Positions 2-16,371 of a stretch of 64,000 nt of DNA are shown piece after piece. Under the pieces are notes generated by a model that saw only the letters and a list, made by a program, of their open reading frames with translations, was not told the DNA's origin and ran no database searches. Position 1 is the stretch's first letter. Each line of letters opens with the position of its first letter. The DNA comes from Rhodocytophaga aerolata (GTDB taxonomy: Bacteria > Bacteroidota > Bacteroidia > Cytophagales > 172606-1): assembly GCF_030503435.1 (NCBI RefSeq), contig NZ_JAUKPO010000001.1, forward strand, positions 434,001 to 498,000, given 5' to 3'. Both the position numbers and the translations under genes were made by a program.

Positions 2-3000
2 CTCAACAACGATGGATTGCAAGATATTTATTTCACAGGCAATATGGTGGGCAACCGACTATACCTCAACAAAGGGGAGTTAAAATTTGAAAACATTACC
101 GAAAGTGCAGGTGTAGCGGCGATGGTTGGATGGAAAACCGGCGTAACCATGGCCGACTTAAATGCCGATGGCTTACTGGATATATACGTTTGCCGTTCCG
201 GAAGCAGTGTAGCCAAAGAACGTGAAAACTTGCTTTATATCAATCAAGGGAATATGCGGTTTACAGAGCAGGCCGCCCAATACGGATTGAATGATACCGG
301 GTATTCTACACAAGCCGCTTTTTTTGACTATGATAATGATGGCGATCTGGATATGTGGCTGCTGAACCATTCTGTACAGGAATACGCCGGATTCAGCCAG
401 ATCAGCGCTAAACTAAAAGATCAGAAAAATCCTCTATTTGCCAGCCGCTTGTTGAAAAATGAAGGGGGAAAATTTACAGATGTAAGCGAAGCCGCCGGTT
501 TGGTAAACAATGTCCTAAGCTTTGGCCTGGGAATTGGTATTTCTGACTTTAATAAAGATGGATGGCCCGATGTGTATATTTCCAATGATTACAACGAACA
601 AGACTACCTGTACCTCAACCAGGGAAATGGCACCTTTAGCGAAAGGTTAAAAGACTGCATCGGACATACTTCCCTCTTTTCGATGGGTGTAGATGTGGCC
701 GATGTAAATAACGATGGCTGGATGGATGTACTCACCCTGGATATGCTTCCGGAAGATAACTTCCGCCAGAAACAAGTGCTTGGGCCAGATAATTACGATA
801 AATACCAGATGCTGGTAAAGTCAGGCTTTTATCACCAGAACATGCGCAACATGCTGCAACTCAACAACGGACCAATGCAACTAACGGATTCTGCTGGAAA
901 ACCAAATCCGGTCAAAGGAGTTTCGTTTAGCGAAATTGGGCAACTGGCTGGCGTTTCGAATACCGACTGGAGCTGGGCGCCTTTGTTTGCCGACTTTAAC
1001 AACGATGGCCATCAGGATCTTTTTATCAGCAATGGGTACGCCCGCGATTATACCAATATGGATTTTCTGAGCTTTGCGGCAGACGAGAAAATGAAAGAAG
1101 GCCAGGGCAGCCAGAAAATGACCATGCAACAGATTATTGGCAAAATGCCATCTGCCATTGTAAAGAATTATATCTACGAGAACAAAGGGGACCTGACTTT
1201 TGCTAAACAAACAGAGAAATGGGGGCTGGACCAGACCAGCATTTCCACCGGAGCCGCCTATGCCGACCTAGACAATGATGGTGACCTGGATTTAGTAGTA
1301 AATAACACCAATGAAGCTGCTTTTGTATACCAGAACAACCTGGAGAACCAAGTAAAAGACCACCGTTTTTTAAAGGTAAAACTTATAGGAGAGGGAAAAA
1401 ACAAACAAGGAATTGGAGCAACTGTACAGCTTATTTGTTCAGATAAAACATTGGTTCAGGAAATGATGCCTACCAGAGGATTCCAGTCCTCAGTACCTGC
1501 CGAACTGGTATTCGGTTTGGGAACCTCTGACCTGCAACAAATACAGGTAACCTGGCCAAGTGGAAAAATACAAACCATTTCCTCTTTGAAGCCTAACCAA
1601 ACCATTACTTTACAAGAAAAAGAAGCCTCTCTGCCATCAACTCCACAGGCAACTACTTCTCTGCTGTTTACACAACTAAATACTCTAGTAGATTTTACAC
1701 ACCAGGAAGAAAACTTTGTAGACTTTAAAATTCAACGATTGCTACCCAATGCTCTTTCTGCACAAGGGCCGCACATAGCCAAAGGTGATGTAAATGGAGA
1801 TGGACGGCAAGATTTGTTCGTTTGCGGTGCCCGGGGACAGGAAAGTAAACTATTTCTTCAAAAGGCGGATGGCACTTTTCATGCACTTCCACAAGCTGAT
1901 TTAGCCAAAGATGCGGCCGCTGAAGATACGGATGCCTCTTTTTTTGATGCAGATGGAGACAAAGACCTGGACCTACTGGTCGTAAGCGGGGGCTATTGTT
2001 TTCCGGCCAATGATCCAAGTTTACAACCCCGTTTATATGTGAATGATGGCAAAGGAAAATTTATCCGGAAAAGTGACCTGCTTCCCTCCTTCTTTGTAGA
2101 TGCCTCCTGTGTACGGCCTGGAGATGTAGATGGTGATGGGGATGTAGATCTGTTTATTGGTGGAAGAGTTATTCCAGGCCAGTATCCAAAAGCACCCGAA
2201 AGCTATTTACTAGTCAACAATGGCAACGGACAGTTCACAACACAAACCGACAAACTGGCACCCCAATTAAAACATGCAGGCATGGTTACCGATGCTCTCT
2301 GGCTGGATGTAAATGGAGATAAAACCCAGGATTTAGTGGTTGTCGGAGAGTGGATGCCCATTACCCTATTTATTAATCAGGATGGAAAACTCGTAAATCA
2401 AACATCCACCTATTTGCCACAAGCTTCATCCGGATGGTGGAACCGCATCCTGGCTGAAGATTTCGATAACGATGGCGATCTGGATTTGGTAGCAGGAAAT
2501 CTGGGATTAAACAACCAGATGAAAGTAACCGGGCAACAACCTGCTACACTACTCTACAGCGATTTTGACAATAATGGTACCATTGATCCTGTACTAAGCT
2601 ATTACATAGAGGGCAAGAATTATCCTGCTTTCAGCCGAGACGAACTAGGCGGTCAGATGCCTGCCATAAAAAAACGGTTTACGAGTTACGAAGCTTATGC
2701 CAAAGCAACTATGGAAGATGTATTTTCGAAAGAGCAATTACAGGTTGCTCAAAAATTAACCGCTAGCCGCTTTCATACCACGTATTTTGAAAATAATAAG
2801 GGCCTATTCACTGCTAAAGAGCTGCCCATACAAGCTCAATTTGCACCTGTGTATGCCATACAATCTCTGGATATAAACAGTGACGGGCACCTGGATATAC
2901 TACTTGGCGGAAATCTGGAGAAAACCAGGGTAGTTACCGGGAAATACGATGCCAGTTACGGAACCGCTTTTCTGGGAGACGGCAAAGGCAATTTTACTTA

Positions 3001-3184
3001 TTTGCCTCAGGCACAAGCGGGCCTGCATATCAGAGGCGATGTCCGGGATATAGTTGTTTTGGAGCAAGGCAACCAAACAAAAGTACTTTTTGCTGTTAAC
3101 AATGACAAAGTACGTACGGTAGCTCTAAACAAGAAGAATCAAAACATGGCAGCTTCAACCACTAACACATCTGCTAATAAATAA
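2..3184 (+). CDS. FG-GAP/VCBS repeat protein with ASPIC/UnbV domain (CRTAC1-like), 5'-truncated
   Basis: The frame is open from the first base of the window, so the gene starts to the left; the first codons already encode a calcium-loop repeat, so the TTG at 17 is not a true start. The 1060 visible residues carry many Asp-rich loops of the DxNxDGxxD type (for example DLNADGLLD, DYDNDGDLD, DVDGDGDVD), typical of FG-GAP/VCBS beta-propeller blades that bind calcium. A region near residues 450-535 (VKLIGEG to QTITLQ) matches the ASPIC/UnbV domain, which separates two propellers. Such proteins are exported in Cytophagales and often lie next to SusC/SusD genes; any partner is outside the window. 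No catalytic residues are recognised, and the role (adhesion, surface binding) is unknown. It is convergent with the minus-strand deacetylase, 40 bp away. Confidence 0.9.
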   Translation, partial: LNNDGLQDIYFTGNMVGNRLYLNKGELKFENITESAGVAAMVGWKTGVTMADLNADGLLDIYVCRSGSSVAKERENLLYINQGNMRFTEQAAQYGLNDTGYSTQAAFFDYDNDGDLDMWLLNHSVQEYAGFSQISAKLKDQKNPLFASRLLKNEGGKFTDVSEAAGLVNNVLSFGLGIGISDFNKDGWPDVYISNDYNEQDYLYLNQGNGTFSERLKDCIGHTSLFSMGVDVADVNNDGWMDVLTLDMLPEDNFRQKQVLGPDNYDKYQMLVKSGFYHQNMRNMLQLNNGPMQLTDSAGKPNPVKGVSFSEIGQLAGVSNTDWSWAPLFADFNNDGHQDLFISNGYARDYTNMDFLSFAADEKMKEGQGSQKMTMQQIIGKMPSAIVKNYIYENKGDLTFAKQTEKWGLDQTSISTGAAYADLDNDGDLDLVVNNTNEAAFVYQNNLENQVKDHRFLKVKLIGEGKNKQGIGATVQLICSDKTLVQEMMPTRGFQSSVPAELVFGLGTSDLQQIQVTWPSGKIQTISSLKPNQTITLQEKEASLPSTPQATTSLLFTQLNTLVDFTHQEENFVDFKIQRLLPNALSAQGPHIAKGDVNGDGRQDLFVCGARGQESKLFLQKADGTFHALPQADLAKDAAAEDTDASFFDADGDKDLDLLVVSGGYCFPANDPSLQPRLYVNDGKGKFIRKSDLLPSFFVDASCVRPGDVDGDGDVDLFIGGRVIPGQYPKAPESYLLVNNGNGQFTTQTDKLAPQLKHAGMVTDALWLDVNGDKTQDLVVVGEWMPITLFINQDGKLVNQTSTYLPQASSGWWNRILAEDFDNDGDLDLVAGNLGLNNQMKVTGQQPATLLYSDFDNNGTIDPVLSYYIEGKNYPAFSRDELGGQMPAIKKRFTSYEAYAKATMEDVFSKEQLQVAQKLTASRFHTTYFENNKGLFTAKELPIQAQFAPVYAIQSLDINSDGHLDILLGGNLEKTRVVTGKYDASYGTAFLGDGKGNFTYLPQAQAGLHIRGDVRDIVVLEQGNQTKVLFAVNNDKVRTVALNKKNQNMAASTTNTSANK

Positions 3185-3224: not shown

Positions 3225-4493
3225 TTATCTGGATGCGGCTGCTGGTTTTTGTGGTACAACAAGCGGACTGGCTATGCCATTGAGATCATATACAATTTTG
3301 CCGTCCCTGATAGTCATTTCACATTCCAGGCGCTTGTTTCCTTCTAGTTTATAGCCAGTATAATCGAAATAGCCGAATTTACCGTTACGTAAAGTAAGTA
3401 CTGCCACGTCGGCTAGGGCACCAACCGATAAATGGCCTAACTCTTCGCGTTTAATAGCTTTAGCAGAATTCCAGGTACTGGCTTGTATAACAGGCTGCAG
3501 TTCCATACCCATTATCAGGAATTTAGACATAGTCGTCAGCATATCTTTCATGGCATTATTCATACTGCCGGTGTGGATATCGGTACTGATGGTATTCGGA
3601 TAAAAGCCATTTTTAAGGGCTGGTACAGCCTGCGAAAAAGCAAAACTGATGCCTCCGTATCCTACGTCAAAGATGATTCCCCGTTTTTGCGCTTCCCAGA
3701 CAAAGGGCTTTACTTTTTTAGACGCTGTGTCTACAATCGCTTCTCTGGTAGCCAGCTGCCCGAAAGCATGCGTATAAATATCCCCAGGCCGCAGGTGTTT
3801 CATAAATAGTTCTTCAATAGACAACGGAGGGTTGCTTCCCCCAAAATCAATAATTACAGGAATATTCGCCATATTACCTGCTTCCACTGCCCGGTCTACC
3901 GGAGTCCATTCCGGGCCTTCGTAATGAGCCACTTTTACACCTACTATGTAATTTTTATGTTGCTTGGCTACCAGAGCAGTCATTTTTGCATCCATATCCT
4001 GCGTGTTCTGCTCATAGGCACCGCCTCTCATGCCTTCGCCTACAATATTTAAAAAAGAAAGTACCCGTGTTTTGGAGTTATCAATCACATTTTGTTTGAA
4101 TGTAGGAAAACTGCGCCAACCGGCACCCCCGCAATCTACCACGGTAGTAACTCCATTACGGAACGTAAATCCATCCGGGGGAAGGGCATTAAAGCCATTG
4201 CTGTAGGCATGGTTGGGTTCTGTGCCAAAGAAATTATGAGAATGGATATCAATCAGGCCGGGCGTTACATACATACCTTTGGCATTCACCACTTGGGCAG
4301 CACCTTTGGTGTCTATATTTTTGCCAACCTGGGCAATTTTTCCATCCAGAATGGCTACATCCATCACGCCATTAAGGTTATTCTTGGGATCAATTACATG
4401 TCCACCTTTAATAACTATACTATAGGTCTGTGCCTGAACAAAGTTTAGCGTAAAAAATACGAGAGATAAAAAAATGAGATATACTTTTTGCAT
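3225..4493 (-). CDS. Exported amidohydrolase/deacetylase, Atu3266/EF_0820 family (copy 1)
   Basis: A 422-residue metal-dependent amidohydrolase with a Sec signal peptide ending at about residue 21 (LNFVQAQ). Metal-site residues are visible: HxH at H84/H86 (IDIHSH), a candidate carboxylated lysine K187 (VGVKVAH), H242 (IYTHAF) and catalytic-type D305 (ISTDIHTG). This pattern and the N-terminal IKGGHVIDP block fit the COG3964-type deacetylases, whose studied members remove acetyl groups from N-acetyl or O-acetyl hydroxy/amino acids and are often encoded with SelA-like PLP enzymes. That partnership is seen here: the PLP enzyme gene lies just upstream on the same strand. Being exported is unusual for the family. 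It is a close paralogue of the gene at 8451-9749. The actual substrate is not known. Confidence 0.9.
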   Translation of the reverse strand: MQKVYLIFLSLVFFTLNFVQAQTYSIVIKGGHVIDPKNNLNGVMDVAILDGKIAQVGKNIDTKGAAQVVNAKGMYVTPGLIDIHSHNFFGTEPNHAYSNGFNALPPDGFTFRNGVTTVVDCGGAGWRSFPTFKQNVIDNSKTRVLSFLNIVGEGMRGGAYEQNTQDMDAKMTALVAKQHKNYIVGVKVAHYEGPEWTPVDRAVEAGNMANIPVIIDFGGSNPPLSIEELFMKHLRPGDIYTHAFGQLATREAIVDTASKKVKPFVWEAQKRGIIFDVGYGGISFAFSQAVPALKNGFYPNTISTDIHTGSMNNAMKDMLTTMSKFLIMGMELQPVIQASTWNSAKAIKREELGHLSVGALADVAVLTLRNGKFGYFDYTGYKLEGNKRLECEMTIRDGKIVYDLNGIASPLVVPQKPAAASR

Positions 4494-4529
4494 ACGTACG
4501 GGTTAGGGATTCAATAGCTGTAAAGAAAG

Positions 4530-4555
4530 AACCCTCTACAATAAAGTAAAGGGTT
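4530..4555. other. Hairpin between PLP-enzyme and deacetylase genes (copy 1)
   Basis: AACCCTCTAC and GTAAAGGGTT form a 10-bp stem with one mismatch around a 6-base loop, in the 115-bp gap of the cassette. There is no clear U-run on the minus strand, so it may be an attenuator or RNA-stability element rather than a terminator. Confidence 0.35.
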
Positions 4556-4608
4556 AAAAGGATTAACAAACCAGGTAAGTTTTTCAGTAATTCTGCTTTT
4601 ATACAGCG

Positions 4609-5832
4609 TTAGACAGTGGCTTTTGAAAATTCTTCTGTCAGACGTTTGGCTACTATTTTCTCCTGGCCCGGCTTCATCATCCAAACGGTCACACTAAAGG
4701 ACTCTGGCCCACCACCCCCCAGTTCAATAGATGGATTGCCCTTGCGCAAGTTGGCGACGAGATCGTCTTTAGCAAGCTTGATTTTATTTTTGTCCCAGGT
4801 TACTTGCAAAGTAGGTGTATGGTTGCCCAGAGGTGGCACGGTTATTTGAGTTTGCACACCTTCTACTTTTTTGATGGAATTGTCAATGTGTGCTATGCCT
4901 TCCTCCCACTGCTTCCAGGTTTTCGCATGATCCTGATTAATAAATTTCTCCAGAGCCACATACATGCCGAAAATTTCTTCTTTGTTAATTTTCATGCCCC
5001 GGCCAATCGTAAAACCTCTGGGAGGCATGTGCATCCGGGCAGCAGCAATCAGGTCTTTTTTGCCCATCAATAATCCGGCGCTTTGGGGTCCCCGCATGGC
5101 TTTGCCGCCAGAGATACACACTAAGTCAAAGCCCATGTCATTAAATTTCCACAGGTTTTCTACCGGGGGCACATCGGCGGCTATATCAATCATGGTAGGT
5201 ATATTGTGCTTTTTGCCCAGGGCTACCCATTCTTCATGCATAATTTTCCCTTTATCTGCCTGGATGTGTAGAAACCACAGCATAGCTGTGCGTTCGTTAA
5301 TGGCTTTTTCTACCTCTTCTACCGTTTCTACAAACACCACTTTACACCCAGTATTGGTCAAGGCTTGTTTATACACAATATCGTGCCCTTTCTGAATGAT
5401 TACTTCGGATTTCATACCAGTGTATTCCAGATGCGGCAGTTGCTCTACTTTTTTCTGATCGGTACCGGTTAGTACACCTGCCAGGCCTAATGTCAAAGCG
5501 GAGAAGGCACCGGATGTAACTACAGCTGATTCTGAATGAACCATTTTGGCAATCCGTTCGCCTACTTTGTCTTGCACCTCATCGAGCAAACAAAATTCCT
5601 TGGAGGTAGAAACAATGGTATCCAGTACTTCATCTTGCATCAGGGAGCCCGTCATGAAAGTAAGCGTACCTGCCGCGTTAATAAAGGTACGTACACCTAG
5701 TTCTTTAAACAGATCCCGTTTGGGCTCTTTAGGAGCAGCCTGTGCAGGCAGAAAGGGAATACTGCTTCCGACAAGTCCGCCCAAGACTGGTATGGCAGAC
5801 AAGCGTTTGATTAAATTTCTTCTATTAAGCAT
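4609..5832 (-). CDS. SelA-like PLP-dependent enzyme with Tat signal (copy 1), D-glucosaminate ammonia-lyase-like
   Basis: A 407-residue fold-type I PLP enzyme of the SelA-like group that includes the D-glucosaminate-6-phosphate ammonia-lyase DgaE. The predicted PLP lysine is K244 in ISGGKAMRG, and the cofactor-ring aspartate is D216 in MIDIAADVP. I start at 5832 rather than the in-frame ATG at 5886 because this places a twin-arginine signal at the N-terminus (NRRNLIKRL followed by a hydrophobic stretch ending AQA). Tat export would suit a protein that folds around PLP before transport. It lies between the deacetylase and RidA genes, so it may act on the freed amine by elimination and release an enamine. 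Some residues are near-identical to those of its paralogue at 9783-11015. Substrate is inferred from family and context only. Confidence 0.85.
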   Translation of the reverse strand: MLNRRNLIKRLSAIPVLGGLVGSSIPFLPAQAAPKEPKRDLFKELGVRTFINAAGTLTFMTGSLMQDEVLDTIVSTSKEFCLLDEVQDKVGERIAKMVHSESAVVTSGAFSALTLGLAGVLTGTDQKKVEQLPHLEYTGMKSEVIIQKGHDIVYKQALTNTGCKVVFVETVEEVEKAINERTAMLWFLHIQADKGKIMHEEWVALGKKHNIPTMIDIAADVPPVENLWKFNDMGFDLVCISGGKAMRGPQSAGLLMGKKDLIAAARMHMPPRGFTIGRGMKINKEEIFGMYVALEKFINQDHAKTWKQWEEGIAHIDNSIKKVEGVQTQITVPPLGNHTPTLQVTWDKNKIKLAKDDLVANLRKGNPSIELGGGGPESFSVTVWMMKPGQEKIVAKRLTEEFSKATV

Positions 5833-5892
5833 TAGGGTATAGGTTAAATAGGGAAAGAAAGTGGTATCTCGGCTTAGAAATACCATGAGTTG

Positions 5893-6351
5893 TTAGACGT
5901 AAGCAATGCAATCCATTTCTACCAGTGAGTCGCCTGGTACGCCCCCATACACTGCCACTGTGGTACGTACCGGGGGTTTACTGCCAAAACGGCCTTTATA
6001 TACTTCGTTCATCCCTTTGTAATCATTCAGGTCGTGCAGGTACACGTTTACTTTCAGTACTTTATCCATAGAGGAGCCGGCTTTTTTTAGTTCAGCCTCC
6101 AGTTCCTTCAGTACTTCATCGGTGTGTACTTTTATATCGCCTTCTTTATGATACCCTTTTCCGGCAACAAATATCAAATTTCCATGCTTAGTAGAACCTG
6201 AAAACAAAGGTACATCCTGATAAGTAGTGACATTAAATACTTCTTTTTCCGGAGTGGCATCTGTTTTAGCCTGAGCAACGGCTCCTAAACCGGTAACACC
6301 TGCAAGGGAGGCAAATAGTCTTTTTAGAATAGATCTTCTTTGTGATTTCAT
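5893..6351 (-). CDS. RidA/YjgF-family protein with twin-arginine-type signal (copy 1)
   Basis: A 152-residue protein whose last ~110 residues match RidA, the enamine/imine deaminase that hydrolyses reactive products of PLP enzymes. Family motifs visible are NLIFVAGKG, VLKVNVYLHDLNDY, KPPVRTTVAV and the C-terminal VEMDCIAYV, in which the arginine of PPVRTTV is the usual substrate-binding residue. I start at ATG 6351, not 6447, since this gives QRRSILKRL plus a hydrophobic stretch ending AQAKTDA, a Tat-like signal. RidA is normally cytoplasmic; an exported form beside an exported PLP enzyme suggests a periplasmic clean-up step. The gene lies 60 bp upstream of the PLP-enzyme gene on the same strand. 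A decayed second copy lies at 11045-11499. Confidence 0.88.
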   Translation of the reverse strand: MKSQRRSILKRLFASLAGVTGLGAVAQAKTDATPEKEVFNVTTYQDVPLFSGSTKHGNLIFVAGKGYHKEGDIKVHTDEVLKELEAELKKAGSSMDKVLKVNVYLHDLNDYKGMNEVYKGRFGSKPPVRTTVAVYGGVPGDSLVEMDCIAYV

Positions 6352-6443
6352 AGTGGGTTTTTGTAAAGGAATAAAATTGAATTGGTATGTTGAAAATTTA
6401 CTTTGTTGATTAGTCTGGAAAGAAACGGTTTCTAATTCCCCTC

Positions 6444-8237
6444 TCACTTAGTTGTCGAAGTATTTTGCACGTGTAATGCATTTCTCACCTTATTCACTTC
6501 GTCTGCATTGATGGCGCTTGCCGTATTTCCAAAATTTTGCCGGATATAGGTCAGTACCTGGGCTATATCTTCATTTCCCAAAAAGCTATGCTGCGGCATT
6601 ACATTGTTATACGATTGTCCTTTTACTTCAATAGGGCCCTGTAACCCATTCAATACTACTTCAATCAACCGATTTTTATCGCCTACTACCCAATCTGAGT
6701 TAGCCAGCGGGGGAAAACGGCTGTTATCGCCTAAGCCATTCCGCTGATGACAGGAACCACAATAGGTATTGTATATTTTTTCGCCGGCTACTACTACCCC
6801 TTTATCCAGGTTATCATTCACTTCATCGGGGGTGCGCAGGTGAGAAAGAGATTTGCGTTTTTCCATCTGGGCTAATTGCGGCTCTCCAAAGGTATCTTTC
6901 TCCCCGGTGTACATAATCCGCCATACTTTGCCTTTTTCTGTTTCAGCAATGTATAAAGACCCATCAGGCCCCATAGCAATGCCCATAGGTCGGTAATGTG
7001 CATCACTTACGTTCACAATGGGGTCTACTCCGGCAAATCCATCGGCAAACACTTCCCATTCGCCAGTAGGTTTACCATTTTTAAACGGAATAAAGCCAAT
7101 AAAATAACTGGCTTGCGGATAAGGTGCCCGGTTAGTAGATCCATGAAAGGCAACAAAGGCCCCTTCCCGGTACCTTTCGGGAAACTGAGTTCCTGTATAG
7201 AAAAGCACATCGTTTGGAGCCCAGTGGCCAGGAAAGCCGAAAATCGGTTGTTCCAGGTCTTTTTCTTTTCCAGCCAACGCTGCTTTCCCTTCATATTCCG
7301 GATTTATTACTTTCTTTTTCTGCATCTGGTCGTAATAGAAGTAGGGCCAGCCGCCATCCATTCCTTCCCGTACCTTAAAAAATTCTTCTGAAGGCAGCAC
7401 CGCACTTTGCCAGGGCGTATACTTATGTGCCCATAAGCGCAGCAGGTCATCGCGGCCATGGTTGAGTACGTATAAGCTTTTATCAGCCTGATTCCAGTCC
7501 ATGGCTACAATACTTCGCAGGCCAGTGGCATACTTAGTACCATCTCTCTGGGTCTGGTGAAGTTTATCTGCACTAAACCGCCAGATGCCTGCATGATCTT
7601 CCAGGAGCGGGCAAGGATAGATGCCTGGAGAGTTAGGTGTGCGGTTAGTTTCCTGGCACGCATTGGAGGGAGCGCCAAACGGAACATACATATTTCCCTG
7701 ATCATCGAATGATAGCGGTTTGGCGATGTGTTCGTGCATGCCATGCGCATGGTCGTCGGTGAGGATTATCTCCATCTTGCCTTCCGGCACCAGTTTACCC
7801 GGCGTCAGTTTATACCTGTACACAAGTAATTCCGAGCTGAAATAAATATATCCTTTATGAATCCGTACGGCTGTACCATAACCTCTTTCCTTTCCTACGC
7901 CACCAAACCGTTTCAAAATATCTGCTCTGCCATCGTTATTGGTATCACGCAGTGCAATAATTGAACTATCGGCTCCGCCATACCGGGCCTTTACATACAC
8001 ATCTCCATTATCGTTTACTGCAATATGCCGGGCTTTGCCTTCCAGACTATCTGCTACCACTACGGCCTGAAAATTACCAGGAAGAAAAAGACCTCCATTG
8101 TCTGGGCTGGGTGGCGGCAGCTTTACTTTTTCTTTACACTGTGAGAAGAAAAGAAGGAGCAATAACCAACAAAAAGTTCTGCTGAACAGTCCTGTTGCAG
8201 AGGTTGCCTTTAAATACGTCAGGTATATGTGTTGCAT
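6444..8237 (-). CDS. Sorbosone/aldose dehydrogenase-like beta-propeller fused to cytochrome c, lipoprotein
   Basis: A 597-residue exported protein. The N-terminus has a hydrophobic core followed by FFSQC, a probable but non-canonical lipobox at about residue 34. Residues ~45-480 form a propeller of the sorbosone/PQQ-glucose dehydrogenase type (GDVYVKARYGG, FSSELLVYRYK, HGMHEHIAKPLSFDDQG, GPDGSLYIAETEKGKVWRI). Residues ~500-580 are a c-type cytochrome with heme site CGSCH and a late Met ligand candidate in NNVMPQHSF. It probably oxidises a sugar or aldehyde and passes electrons to the respiratory chain. I cannot confirm PQQ binding from sequence alone; related Bacteroidota proteins exist with unknown substrates. 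It sits between the two deacetylase cassettes and upstream of copy 1, all on the same strand. Confidence 0.8.
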   Translation of the reverse strand: MQHIYLTYLKATSATGLFSRTFCWLLLLLFFSQCKEKVKLPPPSPDNGGLFLPGNFQAVVVADSLEGKARHIAVNDNGDVYVKARYGGADSSIIALRDTNNDGRADILKRFGGVGKERGYGTAVRIHKGYIYFSSELLVYRYKLTPGKLVPEGKMEIILTDDHAHGMHEHIAKPLSFDDQGNMYVPFGAPSNACQETNRTPNSPGIYPCPLLEDHAGIWRFSADKLHQTQRDGTKYATGLRSIVAMDWNQADKSLYVLNHGRDDLLRLWAHKYTPWQSAVLPSEEFFKVREGMDGGWPYFYYDQMQKKKVINPEYEGKAALAGKEKDLEQPIFGFPGHWAPNDVLFYTGTQFPERYREGAFVAFHGSTNRAPYPQASYFIGFIPFKNGKPTGEWEVFADGFAGVDPIVNVSDAHYRPMGIAMGPDGSLYIAETEKGKVWRIMYTGEKDTFGEPQLAQMEKRKSLSHLRTPDEVNDNLDKGVVVAGEKIYNTYCGSCHQRNGLGDNSRFPPLANSDWVVGDKNRLIEVVLNGLQGPIEVKGQSYNNVMPQHSFLGNEDIAQVLTYIRQNFGNTASAINADEVNKVRNALHVQNTSTTK

Positions 8238-8303
8238 CTGATAGAAAATGCTTCGGTATTAGAAATTTCACTTTAGTAGCAGGCATAGCAAAGCACCTTT
8301 TTG

Positions 8304-8322
8304 CCCGGCAACACTAGCCGGG
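8304..8322. other. Short GC-rich hairpin between cassettes
   Basis: CCCGGC and GCCGGG, 7 bases apart, form a perfect 6-bp stem in the 213-bp gap between copy 2 of the deacetylase and the dehydrogenase gene. No U-run follows on the minus strand. It could be an attenuator or terminator with the neighbouring hairpin at 8391. Confidence 0.3.
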
Positions 8323-8390
8323 AAAGACGGCCACTTTTGCTTTCTAACTTACAGATAAAAAAGATACCAGTCAACTAAAAGGATGAATAC

Positions 8391-8423
8391 GTGTACGTGC
8401 ACGTTTCTTGTGTGCGCGTACAC
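8391..8423. other. 12-bp stem-loop downstream of deacetylase copy 2
   Basis: GTGTACGTGCAC and GTGCGCGTACAC pair over 12 bp with one G-U wobble around a 9-base loop. It lies 28 bp past the stop of the deacetylase gene at 8451-9749, in line with transcription towards the dehydrogenase. It lacks a clear U-run, so partial termination or mRNA protection are both possible. Confidence 0.4.
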
Positions 8424-8450
8424 ACAGTTTGTCAAAGGCAAACTTCCTTA

Positions 8451-9749
8451 TCAATGCCCGCCACTCTTCTGAGAAGAAGTAGCCCGTTGTGTAGAGGCTG
8501 TTCTGGGTACGACTATTGGATTGGCAATGCCATTCAGGTCGTATACAATTTTGCCGTCTTTAATGGTCATTTCACATTCAAATTTCTTTTTGCCTTCCAT
8601 CTTATAGCCTGTTTTATCATAGAAGCCAAAATTGCCTTCCCGCATGGTGAGCACGGCTACATCGGCCAGGGCACCCACGGACAGATGCCCCAATTCTTCC
8701 CGTTTGATAACCTGAGCCGGAGCCCAGGTACTGGCTTTAATGACGCTGGCTTCGTCCATACCCATGGCTACAAATTTGGACATGATGCTTAATATATCTT
8801 TCATCGAGCCATTCATGCTGCCTGTATGCAAATCGGTGCTGATGGTGTTGGGATAAAAGCCTGCTTGTAGGGCCGGGATGGCCTGGGAATAATTAAAACT
8901 GGCTCCCCCATAGCCTACATCGAACACAATTCCTCTTTTCTGGGCTTCCATTACAAAAGGCTTCACTTTTTTGGTGGCTTCATCTACCACCGTTTCCCGC
9001 ACATTTCCTTCCAGCAATGTATATGTATGGGTATAAATATCCCCGGGCCGCAAGCGTTTCATAAACAATTCTTCAATAGAGAGTGGAGGCGTGTTGCCAC
9101 CAAAATCTATAATAACTGGCATATTGGCTAAGTTACCTGCTTCTACTGCCCTATCTACCGGTGTCCATTCCGGGCCCTGGTAATGCGCTACTTTGAATCC
9201 TACGACATAGTCTTTGTTTTGCCTGGCTACCATGGCAGCCATTTTTGCATCCATGTCATTCAGGTTCTGCTCATAGGCTCCTCCCCGCATGCCTTCACCT
9301 ACAATGTTCAGAAAAGACAGCACTCTCGTCTGCGAATTATCAATAATGTTTTTCTTGAAGGTAGGAAAAGACTTCCAGCCGGCACCCCCACAATCGACTA
9401 TAGTGGTACACCCGACCCGGAACGTAAATCCATCTGGCGGCACGGCCACCAGGCCATTACTCAGGTAATGATCTGGCTCTGTACCAAAAAATACATGCCC
9501 GTGAATATCTACCAAGCCAGGCGTTACATACATGCCTTTGGCATTTACTACCTGGGCAGCGCCTTTGGTATCTATGTTTTTGCCTACCTGGGCAATTTTT
9601 CCATCCTGAATGGCCACATCCATCACAGCATTGATGTTATTCTTAGGATCAATTACATGTCCGTCTTTGATGACGATGCTATAGGTTTGTGCTTTGGCAA
9701 AGGAAGCCAGGAGCAGCATAGAAAAAATATAAAGTACTACTTTTTGCAT
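8451..9749 (-). CDS. Exported amidohydrolase/deacetylase, Atu3266/EF_0820 family (copy 2)
   Basis: A 432-residue paralogue of the gene at 3225-4493, with the same signal-peptide type (ending FAKAQ) and long shared blocks (DTKGAAQVVNAKGMYVTPGL, SFLNIVGEGMRGGAYEQN). Metal residues are kept: HxH as IDIHGHVFF (HGH instead of HSH), the lysine of VGFKVAHY, the histidine of IYTHTYTL and the aspartate of ISTDLHTGS. It therefore looks active. The residues after HxH and after TEPD differ from copy 1, so the substrate range may have drifted. The C-terminus is extended by a Ser/Thr-rich tail (TASTQRATSSQKSGGH). It is 33 bp downstream of the second PLP-enzyme gene, a spacing that suggests one transcript. 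Confidence 0.9.
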   Translation of the reverse strand: MQKVVLYIFSMLLLASFAKAQTYSIVIKDGHVIDPKNNINAVMDVAIQDGKIAQVGKNIDTKGAAQVVNAKGMYVTPGLVDIHGHVFFGTEPDHYLSNGLVAVPPDGFTFRVGCTTIVDCGGAGWKSFPTFKKNIIDNSQTRVLSFLNIVGEGMRGGAYEQNLNDMDAKMAAMVARQNKDYVVGFKVAHYQGPEWTPVDRAVEAGNLANMPVIIDFGGNTPPLSIEELFMKRLRPGDIYTHTYTLLEGNVRETVVDEATKKVKPFVMEAQKRGIVFDVGYGGASFNYSQAIPALQAGFYPNTISTDLHTGSMNGSMKDILSIMSKFVAMGMDEASVIKASTWAPAQVIKREELGHLSVGALADVAVLTMREGNFGFYDKTGYKMEGKKKFECEMTIKDGKIVYDLNGIANPIVVPRTASTQRATSSQKSGGH

Positions 9750-9782
9750 AAGTATTAAGGATAATTTGTTTTACTAAAGTTA

Positions 9783-11015
9783 TCAAGCAGAGGCAGAAGA
9801 TAGTTCTTCGGCCAGTCGTTTGGCTACTATTTTTTCCTGGCCTGGCTTCAACATAAACACCGTCAGGCTGATGGATTGGGTACCTTTTTCTCCTCCCACT
9901 ACTTCAATGGAAGGATTGCCTTTGCGCAGTTTCTCCTGCAAATCCTGAGGCGAAAGCTTGATCTGGTCTCTATGCCAGGATATGCGCAAAGCTGGTGTAT
10001 GGTTGGCTATAGGGGGCACAAATGTTTCTGTTTGCACGCCAGTTACTTTTTTTACAGCCGTGTCGATGTGAGCTATCCGGGTTTCCCACTCTTTCCATTC
10101 TTTTGCATGATCCTGGTTTATATACCGTTCCAGGGCTACGTACATGCCTAGTATTTCCTCTTTGTTTACTTTCATGCCCCGGCCTATATTTCCCCCTCTG
10201 GGTGGCCCGTTTAGCCTGGCAGCAGCAATGAGATCCTTTTTCCCCATCAATAATCCGGCACTTTGGGGTCCACGCATAGCTTTGCCGCCAGAGATACACA
10301 CTAAGTCAAAGCCCATGTCGTTGAATTTCCACAGGTTTTCTACCGGGGGCACATCGGCGGCTATATCAATCATGGTAGGAATAGTATGCTTTTTGCCCAG
10401 GGCTACCCATTCTTCATGGGTTATTTTTCCCTGCGGGGCAGCATAGTTTAGGAACCACAGCATGGCTGTGCGTTCGTTAATGGCTTTTTCTGCTTCTTCC
10501 AGGGTTTCTATTTCTACTACCATTACGCCAGTATTGGTAATGGCATGTACATAGCCGGTATTATGTGCCTTCTGTACAATCACCTGCGACTTCATGCCGG
10601 TGTACTCCAGGTGGGGCAGCTGAGCTATCTTTTTTTCGTCTTTGCCCGTAAGCACGCCTGCCATGCCCAGCACCATGGCCGACCAGCAGCCGGCCGTTAC
10701 CATAGCCGCTTCGGAGTGTACCAGTTTGGCAATCCGCTCGCCTACTTTATCCTGTACTTCTTCCAGCATCATAAATTCTTTAGAAGCGGCGTTGATGGTA
10801 TCCATCACCTCATCTGGCATTAGCGAGGCTGTCATGGCGGTGTAGGTTCCGGCTGCATTAATAAAGGTCCGCAACCCAAGTTCCTGGATGACATTTCTTT
10901 TAGCAGCAGTTGGGAGAGCTGCTCCGAGTGTTGCAAAGGGCAAACTGCTTCCAAACCAGCTTCCAATAAATGGGGCAGCTGACAGGCGTTTAATCAGGCT
11001 TCTTCTAGTGAACAT
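9783..11015 (-). CDS. SelA-like PLP-dependent enzyme with Tat signal (copy 2)
   Basis: A 410-residue paralogue of the enzyme at 4609-5832. The ATG at 11015 begins MFTRRSLIKRL, a twin-arginine motif followed by a hydrophobic region, so export is likely. PLP-site residues are retained (MIDIAADVP and ISGGKAMRG), and the stretch NLWKFNDMGFDLVCISGG is unchanged between copies. Sequence differs more around the region after EYTGMKS (VIVQKAHNTGYVHAI against VIIQKGHDIVYKQAL), which may face the substrate. The family includes D-glucosaminate-6-phosphate ammonia-lyase, so an ammonia-lyase role is plausible but unproven. It lies between the deacetylase copy 2 (33 bp) and the RidA pseudogene (about 30 bp). 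Confidence 0.86.
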   Translation of the reverse strand: MFTRRSLIKRLSAAPFIGSWFGSSLPFATLGAALPTAAKRNVIQELGLRTFINAAGTYTAMTASLMPDEVMDTINAASKEFMMLEEVQDKVGERIAKLVHSEAAMVTAGCWSAMVLGMAGVLTGKDEKKIAQLPHLEYTGMKSQVIVQKAHNTGYVHAITNTGVMVVEIETLEEAEKAINERTAMLWFLNYAAPQGKITHEEWVALGKKHTIPTMIDIAADVPPVENLWKFNDMGFDLVCISGGKAMRGPQSAGLLMGKKDLIAAARLNGPPRGGNIGRGMKVNKEEILGMYVALERYINQDHAKEWKEWETRIAHIDTAVKKVTGVQTETFVPPIANHTPALRISWHRDQIKLSPQDLQEKLRKGNPSIEVVGGEKGTQSISLTVFMLKPGQEKIVAKRLAEELSSASA

Positions 11016-11044
11016 GAAAATACAATTCTAATACCTATTCAACA

Positions 11045-11499
11045 TTATATATGCGCAATACAATCTATTTCCACCCATGAATCACCTGGGGGCCCCCATA
11101 CACCGCCACTGTGGTACGAACCGGAGGTTTGCTTCTAAAGCGGCCTTTGTATACTTCATTCATGGTTTTATAATCATTCAGGTCGTGCAGATAGACGTTT
11201 ACTTTCAGCACTTTATCCATAGAAGATCCGGCTTCTTTCAGCGTTTTTTCCAATTCTGACAGCACGTGACCTGTATGAGCTTTGATGTCTCCCTCAAAAT
11301 GGACACCTATGCCATGAGATAAAAACCAGCGTACCTTGCTTTTTAAATTTACTATACAAAGGTATATCCTGCACGGGCCCAGCTCTTGATTCTGCTTTCC
11401 TAGCCTGCGTTACAGCATGAGCAACCGTACCCGTTCTGGTAATTCCTGCTAACGAAGCAAGCATTTTTTAATGAGGGTTCTCCGTTTGTGTGTGATCAT
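11045..11499 (-). pseudogene. Decayed RidA copy with at least three frameshifts
   Basis: Reading the minus strand from ATG 11499 gives a Tat-like start (THKRRTLIKK, matching SQRRSILKRL of the intact copy) that then hits a stop. Shifting frame restores LASLAGIT and QDIPLYSKFKKQGTLVFIS, equivalent to LFASLAGVT and QDVPLFSG...NLIFVA. A second shift is needed to recover the GIGVHFEGDIKAHTGHVLSELEKTLKEAGSS region split in pieces, and a third at TATGGGGGCCC near 11090, where one base is missing and the last residues (VEIDCIAHI) fall out of frame. The open remnant is only 66 codons (11065-11265). Sequencing error is possible for one site but not likely for all three. The intact paralogue lies at 5893-6351. 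Confidence 0.85.
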
Positions 11500-11843: not shown

Positions 11844-12782
11844 ATGCAACCTACCTACTCACGTACCTTTCTTTTATTCCGGATTTATGTATGCCTATCA
11901 ATTTTCATTACCTTTTCCTGCTCTTCTAAAAAGCAGCCATCCGGTTCAGAAGATTTATTCAAACCTGCTGCTTTTACACCTGCCAACAGCTTTACGTCCG
12001 GTGCAGAAGGGCCTGCTGTAGACAAATCAGGAACGGTGTATGCCGTAAACTATGCACGTGAAGGAACCATTGGCCAGGTAAATCCTGCCGGACAGAGCAC
12101 TATGTTTGTAGAATTACCCAACAGCAGTATCGGCAATGGTATCCGCTTTAATTCCCGTGGCGAGATGTTTATAGCCGATTACACGAACCATAATGTACTG
12201 AAAGTGGACATGCGTACCAAGCAGGTAAGTGTATTTGCTCATGAACCCCGCATGAATCAACCCAATGACATAGCCATCGATAGCAAAGACCGTTTGTATG
12301 CCAGTGACCCGAACTGGAAAGCAAGTACTGGTAATATCTGGCGTATTGACACTGATGGCAAGGTTACCCTTCTGGAAGATAGCATGGGTACTGCCAATGG
12401 CATAGAGGTTAGCCCGGACGATAGAATATTGTATGTAAACGAATCTGTGCAACGCAAAATATGGGCCTATGATTTATCTCCTGAAGGGCAGATCAGCAAC
12501 AAACGCTTGCTTATTGAATTTCCAGACTTCGGTATGGATGGCATGCGCTGCGATGCAGAAGGGAATTTGTATGTAACCAGACATGGAAAAGGAACGGTGG
12601 TAAAAGTATCTCCCAGTGGCAAAGTTGTACAGGAAATAACATTAGCCGGAAAAAAACCCTCAAACATTGCTTTTGGTGGAGAGGATGGCCGCACAGCGTA
12701 TGTTACCTTACAGGATCAGGGGAATCTGGAAACTTTCCGGGTAGATATCCCCGGCCGCGAGTGGCAAATGCAACACAAATAA
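11844..12782 (+). CDS. SMP-30/gluconolactonase-like lipoprotein
   Basis: A 312-residue protein with a lipoprotein signal (hydrophobic stretch ending FITFSCSSKK, lipid-cysteine near residue 28). The rest is a six-bladed propeller of the SMP-30/gluconolactonase/LRE type, with blades such as FTSGAEGPAVDKSGTVY, GNGIRFNSRGEMFIADY, QPNDIAIDSKDRLYASDP, GTANGIEVSPDDRILYVNE and FGMDGMRCDAEGNLYVTRHG. Family members bind a divalent metal through Glu, Asn and Asp residues (E of GAEGPA, N of TANGIE, D of GMDGMR fit) and hydrolyse sugar lactones. Such an enzyme could open a lactone made by the nearby sugar-dehydrogenase-like lipoprotein, but that link is inference. It is alone on its strand and ends at a bidirectional terminator. 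Confidence 0.82.
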   Translation: MQPTYSRTFLLFRIYVCLSIFITFSCSSKKQPSGSEDLFKPAAFTPANSFTSGAEGPAVDKSGTVYAVNYAREGTIGQVNPAGQSTMFVELPNSSIGNGIRFNSRGEMFIADYTNHNVLKVDMRTKQVSVFAHEPRMNQPNDIAIDSKDRLYASDPNWKASTGNIWRIDTDGKVTLLEDSMGTANGIEVSPDDRILYVNESVQRKIWAYDLSPEGQISNKRLLIEFPDFGMDGMRCDAEGNLYVTRHGKGTVVKVSPSGKVVQEITLAGKKPSNIAFGGEDGRTAYVTLQDQGNLETFRVDIPGREWQMQHK

Positions 12783-12897: not shown

Positions 12898-15800
12898 CTA
12901 AAAAGTATACCGCAATTCCAATTGCCCTTGCCATAAAGCACTGTTGATGCCAGATTCGAGTATATTCCATGGTTCTACGCCGGAAGGGGTATTAAACGAG
13001 AAAGCTGGCGTAGTGCCGTCTGACAATTTGCCCAGATAGGTAAGCAGGCGATAGTTCGGATTACCGGCTGTGCCTACAAAATACCGGCGGCCCCAGTTAT
13101 TATTAAGGAAGTTAGCGGCATTGAACATATTGAAACCTACCGTTAACATATGGCGTCTGCTGGAGGCAGTTTTTACAAAGAAATCTTGGCTGATTTTTAC
13201 ATCAACTATACCTGTGAAAGGTGTACGGTCGGCAAAACGTTCGGCATAGGAACCCCGGTTTTCCCGCAGGTAATCTACACTTTCTATGTACGAATTCAAG
13301 GCCTGCCACATTACTTGCTGCTGATCTTCCGGCAAACGTTCAACCGTCGTCTGGCCATTGCTACCCGTTACAGTCTGGCCAAATACAATTTCATCTGGTG
13401 AGGCAGGTATATACACCAGGTTTCTGGCTGCGCTAATGCCGGGGCTAAAAATTTCATTATTGAGCAAGCCATCATCGTTGTATACATAAGAGAAAGGACT
13501 GCCTGTTTGCCCGGTAAAAACCAGAGAAATTTTAGTTGCCATAAAGCCCAGGTATTCTTTCTGGTAGCCAATGGCCGCTACTATCCGGTGACCTGCGTCA
13601 TACAGGGAAGTAGCCAGTACAGCATTGTTTCTGCCGTTTACCTGTTCGCGGTATACCCAGTTATCGTTGTTAATAAACTGCTCTCCATCGTATAAGGATT
13701 TAGCTCTGGTAAAAGAATAGGCAATGCTTCCGCCAAAACCTTTCCGCACAGGATACGACAGCGTAGCCGTTGCATTCCAGGTATAGCCCTGACTGGTATT
13801 GGTTACCAGCGTAATATTATTATAGGTAGGGTCTATTTTATCTTCGGTGTTGAATATGGGCCGATTATCCGGCGTACCAGCCAGCGTAGCAGTGGAAGGC
13901 TTTACATTCACATTTTGCACCCGGATATTGCTGATATTTTTGGTATACATAAATTCGGCAGAACCTACAAAACCTCCCGGCAACTGAATATCTGTTCCCA
14001 AACTTCCTCTGAATACCTGCGGATATTTAAAATCTTCCGCATAAATATCTACATCTCCGGAGGGTTTGGTCAGGTTAGTGGCTAAGTTAGTCTGCCATTG
14101 CCCCGGATTGGGATAAAAAGGCTGCACACCCAGGGATAAACTACTGGTCAGTCCATTCCGGATGTAGATACCTCCCGGCCAAACCCAGGGAATACGGCTG
14201 GTAAATATGCCTAGTCCGCCACGCAGCTGAACAGCATTTGCGTTACTCACATCCCAGTTAAATCCAATACGCGGGCTCCAGTGAATACGCGACTTAGGTA
14301 ATACACTGGCTCTGGCTCCCTGCAAGTCATAGCCAAAGCTTTCAATCAAGGGTATGGTAGTCTGGTTGAAGGGGGTATTTATCTGGGGTGCATCATCCAG
14401 GTTTACCGGAATATCTATGCGAAGGCCAGGAGAAATCTTAAACCGGTCAGAAACCACAATTTCGTCCTGCACATAAAAGCCCAGCTGCATGGCACTAAAG
14501 TCGGCGGCTACGTTTTCCGCATTATCTGCCAGCCGGATGGCTTGCCCTGGGCTTACCGGCAACTCATGTCCGAACAAGTAAAAACCCGGTGCACCACTCA
14601 GGAAACTTTCCAGTCCGGTAGGACCGCCATAAATATAGCGGGGTGTAGAAAAAATAGTAAACGTGTTGAGTAGCTTAAAAAACTCATTATGGGTGCCCAC
14701 AGTAAGGGTATGATTATTTTTATAGAAGGTCAGGTTATTGGTTAAGGTAAACACATCCTGGTTTACAATGTTAGTATAGGAGAAGTTATCAGTTCCAAAA
14801 ATAATAGTAGCATCGCCATCGCCAGCTTGTACCTGCGGAAAAGGTTGCCCCAGAATGTCGCGGTCATCTCTGACAGTAGTCAGGCCCAGGATTAGATGGT
14901 TAGACAGAGAGGGGCTAAAACTGCTGCGCAACTCAACAGCAGAAGAATTAGTGACACTTGGGAAATATACCCCGGTGTTTCCAAAGTAAAGCGTAGTACT
15001 ATTCGGCCTGTTACGCGTTTCTGCAATGCCTTTTACGTAGCTATGCCGCACCGACAGTTTATGCACTTTATTAATATTCCAGTCGAGTTTGCCTAGCACC
15101 TTCGTTCCTTTTAAAGAGTTCAGTTCATTCAGGTAGCCTCCCGGATCATAGCCATATTGCTGCCGCAGCACATCCACTAGTTGGTTAATTTTAGTAGCAT
15201 CGGCATTGCCTGCATAGGTATTAAAAGAGAAAGGCAACGGAGTTTCATCTTTTTGCAGTTCTATATTGGTAAAGAAAAACAACTTATCTTTTACAATAGG
15301 CCCTCCCAGCCGGACTCCATAAATGTTAGACGTGAAAGGTGCCAGCTTATTGCCGGTAGAAGGGGTAACGCCAGCCAGTTTTTCGTTCCGGTTCAGGAAA
15401 TAAGCTGAGCCCTCAAAATAATTTTTTCCACTTCTGGTAACCGCATTTATCCCTGCTCCTACAAATCCTCCTTTGGTAACATCGTAGGGCGAAGTAACTA
15501 CTTGTATCTGTTCCAGGGCATCTATACTGATAGGCGAAATACCAGCCTGTCCGCCATTGGTGCCGGAATACGCCAGGCCAAATACATCATTGTTAATGGC
15601 TCCATCAATATAAATAGCATTGTAGCGGTTGTTCATGCCGGCAAAAGAAATACCAGTGCCTTCGCCCTGAACTAGTGTGGCCTGGGGCGTAAGCCGCATA
15701 TAATCGGTAAGCGACCGCTCTATGGTAGGAAGGCTTTCTAGTTGTTCCCGGTTTACTGTAGTGGCTGGGCCTGTCCGGTTTCTGTCAAAGGAACCCTGGG

Positions 15801-16176
15801 CTGTAACATTAATTTCGGCCAGTTGCAGGGCCTCTTCCTGTAGCTTAATCTGTAGTGGGTATTGCTCCCCCAAACGCAGATTGATGCCTTCTCTGGTATA
15901 GGTTTGAAAACCCACAAAAGAAATGGCGACTTTGTAGGGGCCGCCAATCTGTAAATTAGGTAAACGAAAATTGCCTTTCTCATCGGCTACGGTACCGTAG
16001 GTGGTGCCGGTAGCCTGGTGGGTGGCTACCACTTGTGCGCCAGGCAAAGGCCCGCCGTTGGCTTCTTCTATTTTGCCTACCATAGAAGCAGTAGTTACGC
16101 CTTGACCAAGGCTACTAGTATATGTAATAACAAAAAGAATGAGTGTAAGGGAGAAGGCATGTAATTGCTGTTTCAT
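12898..16176 (-). CDS. TonB-dependent outer membrane receptor with carboxypeptidase-like N-domain
   Basis: A 1092-residue receptor. I start at ATG 16176 (MKQQLHAFSLTL) rather than 16230, because this gives a clean signal peptide ending SLGQG. Residues ~30-110 form a CarboxypepD_reg-like domain (MVGKIEEANGGPLPGAQV). A plug follows (TTVNREQLESLPTIERSLTD, NNRYNAIYIDGAINND, VTSPYDVTKGGFVGAGINAVTRSG), then a long beta-barrel ending in an aromatic C-terminal strand (LRYTF). It has no SusD partner, so it belongs to the OmpA/Oar-like class rather than SusC. It is downstream of the NUP-like and adenosine deaminase genes on the same strand, which makes nucleosides or related purines possible ligands; this is inferred from context only. 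Confidence 0.88.
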   Translation of the reverse strand: MKQQLHAFSLTLILFVITYTSSLGQGVTTASMVGKIEEANGGPLPGAQVVATHQATGTTYGTVADEKGNFRLPNLQIGGPYKVAISFVGFQTYTREGINLRLGEQYPLQIKLQEEALQLAEINVTAQGSFDRNRTGPATTVNREQLESLPTIERSLTDYMRLTPQATLVQGEGTGISFAGMNNRYNAIYIDGAINNDVFGLAYSGTNGGQAGISPISIDALEQIQVVTSPYDVTKGGFVGAGINAVTRSGKNYFEGSAYFLNRNEKLAGVTPSTGNKLAPFTSNIYGVRLGGPIVKDKLFFFTNIELQKDETPLPFSFNTYAGNADATKINQLVDVLRQQYGYDPGGYLNELNSLKGTKVLGKLDWNINKVHKLSVRHSYVKGIAETRNRPNSTTLYFGNTGVYFPSVTNSSAVELRSSFSPSLSNHLILGLTTVRDDRDILGQPFPQVQAGDGDATIIFGTDNFSYTNIVNQDVFTLTNNLTFYKNNHTLTVGTHNEFFKLLNTFTIFSTPRYIYGGPTGLESFLSGAPGFYLFGHELPVSPGQAIRLADNAENVAADFSAMQLGFYVQDEIVVSDRFKISPGLRIDIPVNLDDAPQINTPFNQTTIPLIESFGYDLQGARASVLPKSRIHWSPRIGFNWDVSNANAVQLRGGLGIFTSRIPWVWPGGIYIRNGLTSSLSLGVQPFYPNPGQWQTNLATNLTKPSGDVDIYAEDFKYPQVFRGSLGTDIQLPGGFVGSAEFMYTKNISNIRVQNVNVKPSTATLAGTPDNRPIFNTEDKIDPTYNNITLVTNTSQGYTWNATATLSYPVRKGFGGSIAYSFTRAKSLYDGEQFINNDNWVYREQVNGRNNAVLATSLYDAGHRIVAAIGYQKEYLGFMATKISLVFTGQTGSPFSYVYNDDGLLNNEIFSPGISAARNLVYIPASPDEIVFGQTVTGSNGQTTVERLPEDQQQVMWQALNSYIESVDYLRENRGSYAERFADRTPFTGIVDVKISQDFFVKTASSRRHMLTVGFNMFNAANFLNNNWGRRYFVGTAGNPNYRLLTYLGKLSDGTTPAFSFNTPSGVEPWNILESGINSALWQGQLELRYTF

Positions 16177-16371
16177 GGTGTAAGGTGGATAATACAGGCT
16201 AAATATACTGCCAACACTACTCTTACACAAAATTTAATTCTCAAAAATTATATATATCTAATTTATAATTTTAGTTATTTAACTATTTTAAGAATAATTA
16301 TACCATAAAACACATTTATGCATTTAACTTCATTTACCTGCCTTACTTGTTATATGAACCGAAGTGGCTAA

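Follow-up and report, generated by a model that had tools for sequence, protein, structure and literature searches.

We analyzed a window of 64,000 nucleotides from the genome of Rhodocytophaga aerolata (Bacteroidota; 9.07 Mb), the whole stretch between positions 434,001 and 498,000 of contig NZ_JAUKPO010000001.1. A block of genes on its minus strand (positions 3225-11499) encodes two paralogous pairs of a deacetylase and a lyase dependent on pyridoxal 5'-phosphate (PLP), a GSDH-type sugar dehydrogenase that carries a cytochrome c domain, and a single intact RidA. Both PLP enzymes and RidA are regarded as cytoplasmic, the role assigned to RidA being to protect these enzymes. In this block, the lyases and RidA present twin-arginine (Tat) leaders and the deacetylases present Sec-type leaders. 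These sequences suggest a conserved exported catabolic module for the oxidation and breakdown of N-acetylhexosamines in the periplasm, most likely N-acetylglucosamine (GlcNAc), a reading that we favor with modest confidence. The genes are listed here in order of transcription, followed by the divergent gene beside the block; a slash marks the end of a leader.

11045..11499, minus strand: upstream copy of RidA, pseudogene broken in frame at two places at least
9783..11015, minus strand: PLP2, SelA/DgaE-type PLP lyase, second copy, 410 aa, with Tat-type leader (TRRSLIK start; TIGR01437, 169 bits)
8451..9749, minus strand: deacetylase 2, amidohydrolase/deacetylase, 432 aa, with Sec-type leader (AKA/QTYS; NF006689, 446 bits)
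6444..8237, minus strand: GSDH-type sugar dehydrogenase fused to cytochrome c, probable lipoprotein, 597 aa (PF07995, 32.0 bits; PF00034, 42.3 bits)
5893..6351, minus strand: RidA1, 152 aa, with Tat-type leader (ATG 6351, stop 5893; QRRSILK; PF01042, 72.3 bits)
4609..5832, minus strand: PLP1, SelA/DgaE-type PLP lyase, 407 aa, with Tat-type leader (ATG 5832, stop 4609; NRRNLIK; TIGR01437, 187 bits)
3225..4493, minus strand: deacetylase 1, amidohydrolase/deacetylase, 422 aa, with Sec-type leader (VQA/QTYS; NF006689, 456 bits)
11844..12782, plus strand: SMP-30/gluconolactonase-like (SGL) lipoprotein, divergent (PF08450, 167 bits)

The ATGs of RidA1 and PLP1 were taken from translations of the open reading frames (ORFs). 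The original prediction had placed a sugar dehydrogenase-cytochrome c inside the block and a gluconolactonase-like lipoprotein beside it, and both were found; the latter likely provides a lactonase step. It had also described two tandem copies of a deacetylase, PLP lyase and RidA module. Two deacetylase/lyase pairs are indeed present, but two complete tandem copies are not supported because one RidA is a pseudogene. RidA1 has 152 aa, but the longest ORFs of this upstream RidA, which lie in different frames, encode 56 and 66 aa; its ATG at 11499 falls in the third reading frame. RidA1 matches it (tblastn) at 11313-11092 with 84% identity and, in another frame, at 11467-11048.

The identity is 71% between PLP1 and PLP2 and 76% between the deacetylases. 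In the phylogenetic trees, each window lyase groups with its own counterpart in a genome of the same genus (G001), and other Bacteroidota fall between the window copies; deacetylase 2 also pairs with its G001 counterpart, and deacetylase 1 stands alone on its own branch. Because both lyases and deacetylase 2 pair in this way, the copies do not stem from a recent tandem duplication, which is ruled out by paralogs that predate the genus. The corresponding locus of G001 differs: a second GSDH and one more cytochrome c are present, but there is neither a deacetylase 1 nor, at the place of the upstream copy, any match to RidA. Elsewhere, G001 encodes two more deacetylases that are 53-57% identical (L027). 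In several genera, the lyases and the deacetylases each form two old paralogous lineages that persist side by side. As judged from these trees, the window copies are two old paralogous sub-modules, which perhaps act on different sugars and would share the single intact RidA.

Export leaders and linkage of the three families

PLP1 starts with MLNRRNLIKRL, PLP2 with MFTRRSLIKRL and RidA1 with MKSQRRSILKRL, and the deacetylase leaders end in A-x-A followed by Gln, which has the shape of the Q-rule of Bacteroidetes as given in the available part of its description. In all three families, similarity to solved relatives begins only past the leader. These starts were compared across relatives in alignments of 32 lyases, 27 deacetylases and 29 RidAs chosen for diversity (A1, A2 and A3), as well as in family sets of 102 lyases, 88 deacetylases and 75 RidAs that take in the loci described below, further relatives and the window itself; 8 of the 102 lyases are less than 50% identical to the window lyases. 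The twin arginines are invariant: R22/R23 in 32/32 aligned lyases and R37/R38 (numbering of the 184-aa ORF) in 29/29 aligned RidAs. With a home-made leader test, we detected a Tat-like start in 97/102 lyases and 64/75 RidAs, against 29/922 other ORFs of at least 140 aa in the same loci. These values reached 100/102 lyases when downstream starts were allowed and 70/75 RidAs with a looser motif, and the control was 20/894 once known Tat neighbors (two families) and RraA were left out. The A-x-A/Q pattern was found in 85/88 deacetylases and also in 334/922 of the other ORFs, many of which are themselves exported; this control weakens the pattern as an independent proof of Sec export. The genome encodes one TatC gene. 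These results constitute strong sequence evidence for Tat leaders on the lyase and RidA, and the export across the inner membrane of enzymes usually found inside cells appears well supported. The Sec signal originally predicted for the deacetylase and the twin-arginine motifs predicted for the PLP enzyme and RidA therefore hold after start mapping and are conserved.

The association of the three genes was assessed by scanning named genomes with PLP1; the best 80 of 131 were kept, yielding 79 loci. Lyase, deacetylase and RidA were found together in 62/79 loci. This count is BLAST-based; when only non-overlapping ORFs were considered, the number was 58, with RidAs masked by an overlapping ORF left uncounted. 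Lyase and deacetylase were located within 600 bases of each other on one strand in 57/79 loci, and lyase and RidA in 38/79. These loci are not independent, as L024 and L031 cover one and the same region of a genome, and many loci come from Dyadobacter, Spirosoma, Larkinella and Niastella. The gene order varies among them (RidA-lyase-deacetylase; lyase-deacetylase-dehydrogenases-RidA; deacetylase-RidA-lyase; or RidA on the opposite strand). The persistence of the linkage despite these rearrangements argues for a shared task, and the census rules out a chance association of the trio. The lyase itself is sparse: it was found in 8/395 genomes across the phylum and in 6/59 relatives, the window genome being counted in both. 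Homologs of the module genes are, on this evidence, linked across Bacteroidota rather than present only as unrelated single genes.

Enzyme families and their characterized relatives

The closest characterized relative of the lyases is D-glucosaminate-6-phosphate ammonia-lyase (DGL or DgaE; EC 4.3.1.29; 7lc0/7lce) of the Salmonella dga operon. PLP1 and PLP2 both score below the cut-offs of the DGL families: 187 and 169 bits for TIGR01437 (cut-off 385) and 152 and 149 bits for NF047797 (cut-off 600). The window genome contains three TIGR01437 matches, the third of which is marginal (21.7 bits). By sequence profile, DGL (157 bits) precedes Cap15 (8t7j; 124 bits), the second neighbor in the PDB. 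The AlphaFold model of PLP1 (predicted local distance difference test, pLDDT, of 82) has DGL (7lc0) as its PDB fold match of lowest E-value in Foldseek, with a template modeling (TM) score of 0.82 by target; Cap15 reaches 0.85 by target at 24% identity.

The block lyases share with DGL their fold, family and PLP lysine, and, as proposed here, a glucosaminate-type chemistry. This lysine (K262) is invariant in the 32 aligned lyases and aligns to that of DGL, which is residue 213 by count on the PDB sequence and Lys-217 in PMC9529869. The substrate of DGL is phosphorylated by the phosphotransferase system, and the available part of its description (PMC9529869) includes a docked model in which the phosphate lies near Arg-301, Arg-332 and Arg-346 and His-163 protonates the enamine. 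The H163A variant releases free enamine; the authors suggested that the histidine serves to avoid a toxic product and named RidA as the kind of enzyme that clears enamines (PMC9529869). In contrast, the exported lyases lack these residues. The three arginines align to T359, a variable hydrophobic or Gly position around 390, and W402, by a hand count on one profile alignment, and no Arg was seen among the residues listed at positions 359 (T/S/A/F/N/K), 390 and 402 (W/F) in the 32 rows. The strictly conserved His-162/163 of DGL is found in none of the 102 exported lyases aligned (100 of the 102 Bacteroidota rows and two from Granulicella). The PDB sequence of DGL also has no leader, whereas the exported lyases have a Tat leader. 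The absence of these arginines and of the His-His pair fits a substrate without phosphate and an enamine that is released for a RidA partner to act on. The RidA partner would be explained because the H163A variant of DGL releases free enamine and the exported lyases are without His-162/163.

The deacetylases both exceed the cut-off of NF006689 (PRK09237 amidohydrolase/deacetylase; 371 bits), and they are the only ones to do so among 24 matches in the window genome. Two-metal sites of this kind are formed by an HxH motif, a Lys, two His and an Asp. H84, H86, K187, H242 and D305 are invariant in the 27 aligned deacetylases, but the remaining ligand position, the fifth, is acidic in the exported proteins (D216; Asp in 85/88 and Glu in 3/88 rows). 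The structures 2ics and 2ogj, which we take to be deacetylases of the EF_0837/Atu3266 type and which belong to the same family, have a His there. D-aminoacylase structures gave only a weak match, limited to residues 21-87. RidA1 exceeds the cut-off of PF01042 (27.3 bits) and falls below that of the detoxifying hydrolases of NCBIfam TIGR00004 (68.5 against 106.25 bits). Its R161 and E177 (184-aa ORF numbering) are invariant in the 29 aligned rows, and they would correspond to the Arg and Glu that are catalytic in the E. coli protein. The GSDH-cytochrome c presents a CGSCHQ heme motif and exceeds the cut-offs of PF07995 and PF00034; its FFSQC is lipobox-like with an atypical Gln before Cys. In the PDB, its cytochrome domain accounts for all sequence matches except two weak ones to teneurins, at residues 399-442.

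A candidate periplasmic pathway and its alternatives

The families recurring beside the trio were counted over whole loci and on either strand, from non-overlapping ORFs. GSDH-cytochrome c was found in 38/79 loci and a second GSDH in 26/79, followed by the SBF symporter (23/79), cytochrome c, SusC and carbohydrate-binding module family CBM9 (19/79 each), SusD and RraA-like proteins (16/79 each), a 7-bladed lactonase (14/79), SGL (13/79) and glycoside hydrolase family GH20 (8/79). The BLAST count of SGL was 15, but two of these are 25%-identity matches to another protein and 13 was used. The window genome contains three GH20 matches. The periplasmic oxidative route for amino sugars originally predicted agrees with these neighbors (GSDH, cytochrome c, lactonases, SusC/D and GH20) and with the nearest characterized lyase.

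The families, leaders and linkage were read from sequence; the substrate and each catalytic step we infer. In the proposed pathway, GH20 would free an N-acetylhexosamine, most likely GlcNAc, from glycans. The sugar dehydrogenase would then oxidize its C1 in the periplasm, with electrons passing to cytochrome c, and SGL or the 7-bladed lactonase would open the lactone. The deacetylase would convert the N-acetylhexosaminate to hexosaminate and acetate, the lyase would eliminate water from hexosaminate to give an enamine, and RidA would hydrolyze the enamine/imine to ammonia and 2-keto-3-deoxygluconate, which may then be taken up or broken down further. The need of the lyase to fold around PLP in the cytoplasm before translocation would account for its export by Tat.

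A similar set of enzymes is known from the ong pathway of Pseudoalteromonas prydzensis, for which the available parts of the reports describe a deacetylase, a PLP deaminase and a RidA acting on N-acetylglucosaminate (GlcNAc1A) to yield 2-keto-3-deoxygluconate (PMC9537276, PMC12017989). Deletion of the gene for its RidA, OngD, abolishes growth on GlcNAc1A, and the role of OngD was left open (PMC9537276). The same text presents OngB as sister to D-aminoacylases and OngC as also acting on D-serine and D-threonine (PMC9537276), and the pathway is described from marine Gammaproteobacteria and one Achromobacter. The ong genes and the block share this gene set for N-acetylhexosaminate, as predicted for the block. 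The deacetylation-deamination chain on N-acetylglucosaminate with RidA that had been proposed for the block is plausible, and it is already known from cytoplasmic enzymes of other families (PMC9537276). OngB and OngC are predicted to be cytoplasmic, whereas the block proteins have export leaders; OngB is of the D-aminoacylase type (subtype V metal site) and OngC of fold-type III, whereas the block has a PRK09237 amidohydrolase and a SelA-type lyase. Finally, the ong pathway, as far as its description was available, follows cleavage of chitin by a lytic polysaccharide monooxygenase (LPMO), whereas the window genome has 0 matches to LPMO_10 (PF03067; AA10 LPMO) at an E-value of 0.001; the oxidation of the sugar would therefore have to come from the dehydrogenase. 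The module is, as predicted here, an exported variant of an already known pathway chemistry. No exported version of the pathway was present among the literature matches listed, subscription journals lying largely outside this search, and the available parts of PMC11378808 and PMC12419801 contain nothing on the module.

Two plasmid loci offer further comparisons. On a Rhizobium plasmid (L128), a RidA adjoins a SelA-like lyase, as in the block, and an ATP-binding cassette importer is present. Unlike in the block, no leaders were seen, the RidA belongs to YjgF_endoribonc (PF14588) and the lyase keeps His-His; no deacetylase is annotated within 13 kb. The set recurs in a second phylum: the operon of a plasmid of Granulicella tundricola (L127; Acidobacteriota) includes a lactonase, a deacetylase (51% identical), two lyases, a RidA and an RraA, and twin-arginine leaders were identified by eye on the lactonase, the lyases and the RidA. 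A berberine-bridge protein binding flavin adenine dinucleotide (FAD) stands in place of the GSDH-cytochrome c.

If the proposed pathway is correct, the conserved pair of Tat-exported lyase and RidA would represent enamine chemistry moved outside the cell, and soil Bacteroidota would have an oxidative route from N-acetylated sugars that needs no LPMO. The pathway would also give a testable role to linked genes that are now named selenocysteine synthase-like, adenine deaminase or dihydroorotase, and translation inhibitor.

A broader version, a complete extracytoplasmic, non-phosphorylated, Entner-Doudoroff-like amino-sugar pathway, seems doubtful to us. In this version, electrons from C1 oxidation would enter the respiratory chain directly by way of cytochrome c, and acetate and ammonia would be released outside the cytoplasm. 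RidA would be a pathway enzyme quenching the enamine before any contact with cytoplasmic PLP enzymes, and export would keep this poison of PLP enzymes out of the cell. In loci having both, an exported RraA-like aldolase would cut 2-keto-3-deoxygluconate and the SBF (BASS-type) symporter would import the product. All 18 RraA-like rows, relatives included, have a Sec-like hydrophobic leader (18/18). We do not claim RraA as a proven 2-keto-3-deoxygluconate aldolase, given that the available text on one RraA-like enzyme, from a Flavobacterium that degrades alginate, presents it as a dehydratase/decarboxylase of 2-keto-3-deoxyglucarate (PMC8563752).

Several observations weigh against the exported amino-sugar module. 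At least one gene of the trio is missing from 17/79 loci, and nine of these 17 are full-length loci with solo lyases of Dyadobacter or Larkinella that are 57-61% identical to PLP1. The Tat leader test is a home-made heuristic and not SignalP, and the A-x-A/Q pattern is loose. The scanned genes, which are a part of those in the window, include no GH20, RraA or SBF, and the SusC/SusD pair to the left of the block sits on the other strand. The GSDH match is weak (PF07995 E-value of about 1e-7), and none of the solved sugar dehydrogenases in the PDB matched this protein by sequence. For the deacetylase, the nearest studied enzymes presumably prefer esters of the acetyl-(R)-mandelate type, and no lyase or RidA is annotated beside the gene of a relative on a Salmonella plasmid (L129). 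The berberine-bridge FAD oxidase of Granulicella has no leader, even with 240 upstream bases included, and we do not claim it as proof of periplasmic C1 oxidation. Lastly, the cytoplasmic Rhizobium lyase with a RidA neighbor retains His-His, so histidine loss is not what brings in RidA; 54/102 exported lyases also carry a His somewhere else in the shortened loop, which makes another proton donor possible. Histidine loss as the reason for the RidA partner is accordingly demoted to a supporting point.

The same chain may instead act on another C1-oxidized amino sugar, such as N-acetylgalactosamine (GalNAc), N-acetylmannosamine, N-acetylmuramic acid or a 3-O-substituted unit, with copies specialized by stereoisomer or substituent. 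GH20 acts on both GlcNAc and GalNAc. We consider this alternative unlikely, although it would agree with the persistence of the two old lineages together in several genera. Another possibility involves N-acyl-D-amino acids or hydroxy amino acids from the cell wall or glycopeptides, with deacylation followed by PLP-dependent dehydration of a product resembling D-serine or D-threonine, and then RidA. In its favor, OngB and OngC lie between amino sugars and D-amino acids, and 2-aminoacrylate, named in the available part of PMC9529869, is the textbook substrate of RidA. The recurrence of sugar dehydrogenases, lactonases, CBM9, SusC/D and GH20 beside the genes and the use of a sugar acid by the closest characterized lyase relative both argue against it, and we find it rather improbable. 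Finally, the lyase could use O2 as an oxidase or oxygenase in the manner of Cap15, an O2-dependent PLP enzyme as close to PLP1 in fold as DGL (TM scores above), with RidA clearing the released imine, but DGL leads by profile and by Foldseek E-value, and the glucosaminate reaction already suffices given the lactonase and deacetylase linked to the lyase, which leaves little probability for this reading.

Variants of the module and surrounding genes

The solo lyases (L083, L085, L088, L092, L094, L095, L102, L103 and L109) have Tat leaders, with no deacetylase or RidA in about 21 kb. The other full-length incomplete loci are L038, without the deacetylase, and L106, without both partners; the remainder lie on contigs of 3-13 kb. 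A longer SelA-type lyase (about 530-570 aa) with a twin-arginine start and about 32-37% identity to PLP1 was found in related modules at the following positions.

L027, 5778-7436
L029, 7169-8848
L052, 13804-15525
L082, 12993-14606
L084, 9650-11257
L087, 6222-7829
L093, 14475-16142
L127, 10821-12419

In L029 it replaces the usual lyase, and a DUF362 protein lies near the longer lyase in five loci (L082, L084, L087, L093 and L097). Some modules contain a second type of RidA with Sec-like leaders (L052, 13211-13744; L060, 12553-13104; L081, 13264-13803), which is YjgF_endoribonc (PF14588), as tested for L060.

Among named genomes, the nearest within the same family, Rhodocytophagaceae, is that of Xanthocytophaga flavus, and one stretch is common to G003 and L031. 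To the left of the block, a SusC-type receptor, a SusD, a DUF5107/TPR protein and an ASPIC/FG-GAP protein lie in a row (L030, 743-8751, and window 17-3184, plus strand), on the opposite strand and pointing toward the block; this row ends 40 bases from deacetylase 1. On the other side, at window positions 12898-19155 (minus strand), a TonB-dependent receptor, a purine nucleoside permease (NUP) and an adenosine deaminase also lie in a row, which looks like an ordinary cluster for nucleoside use.

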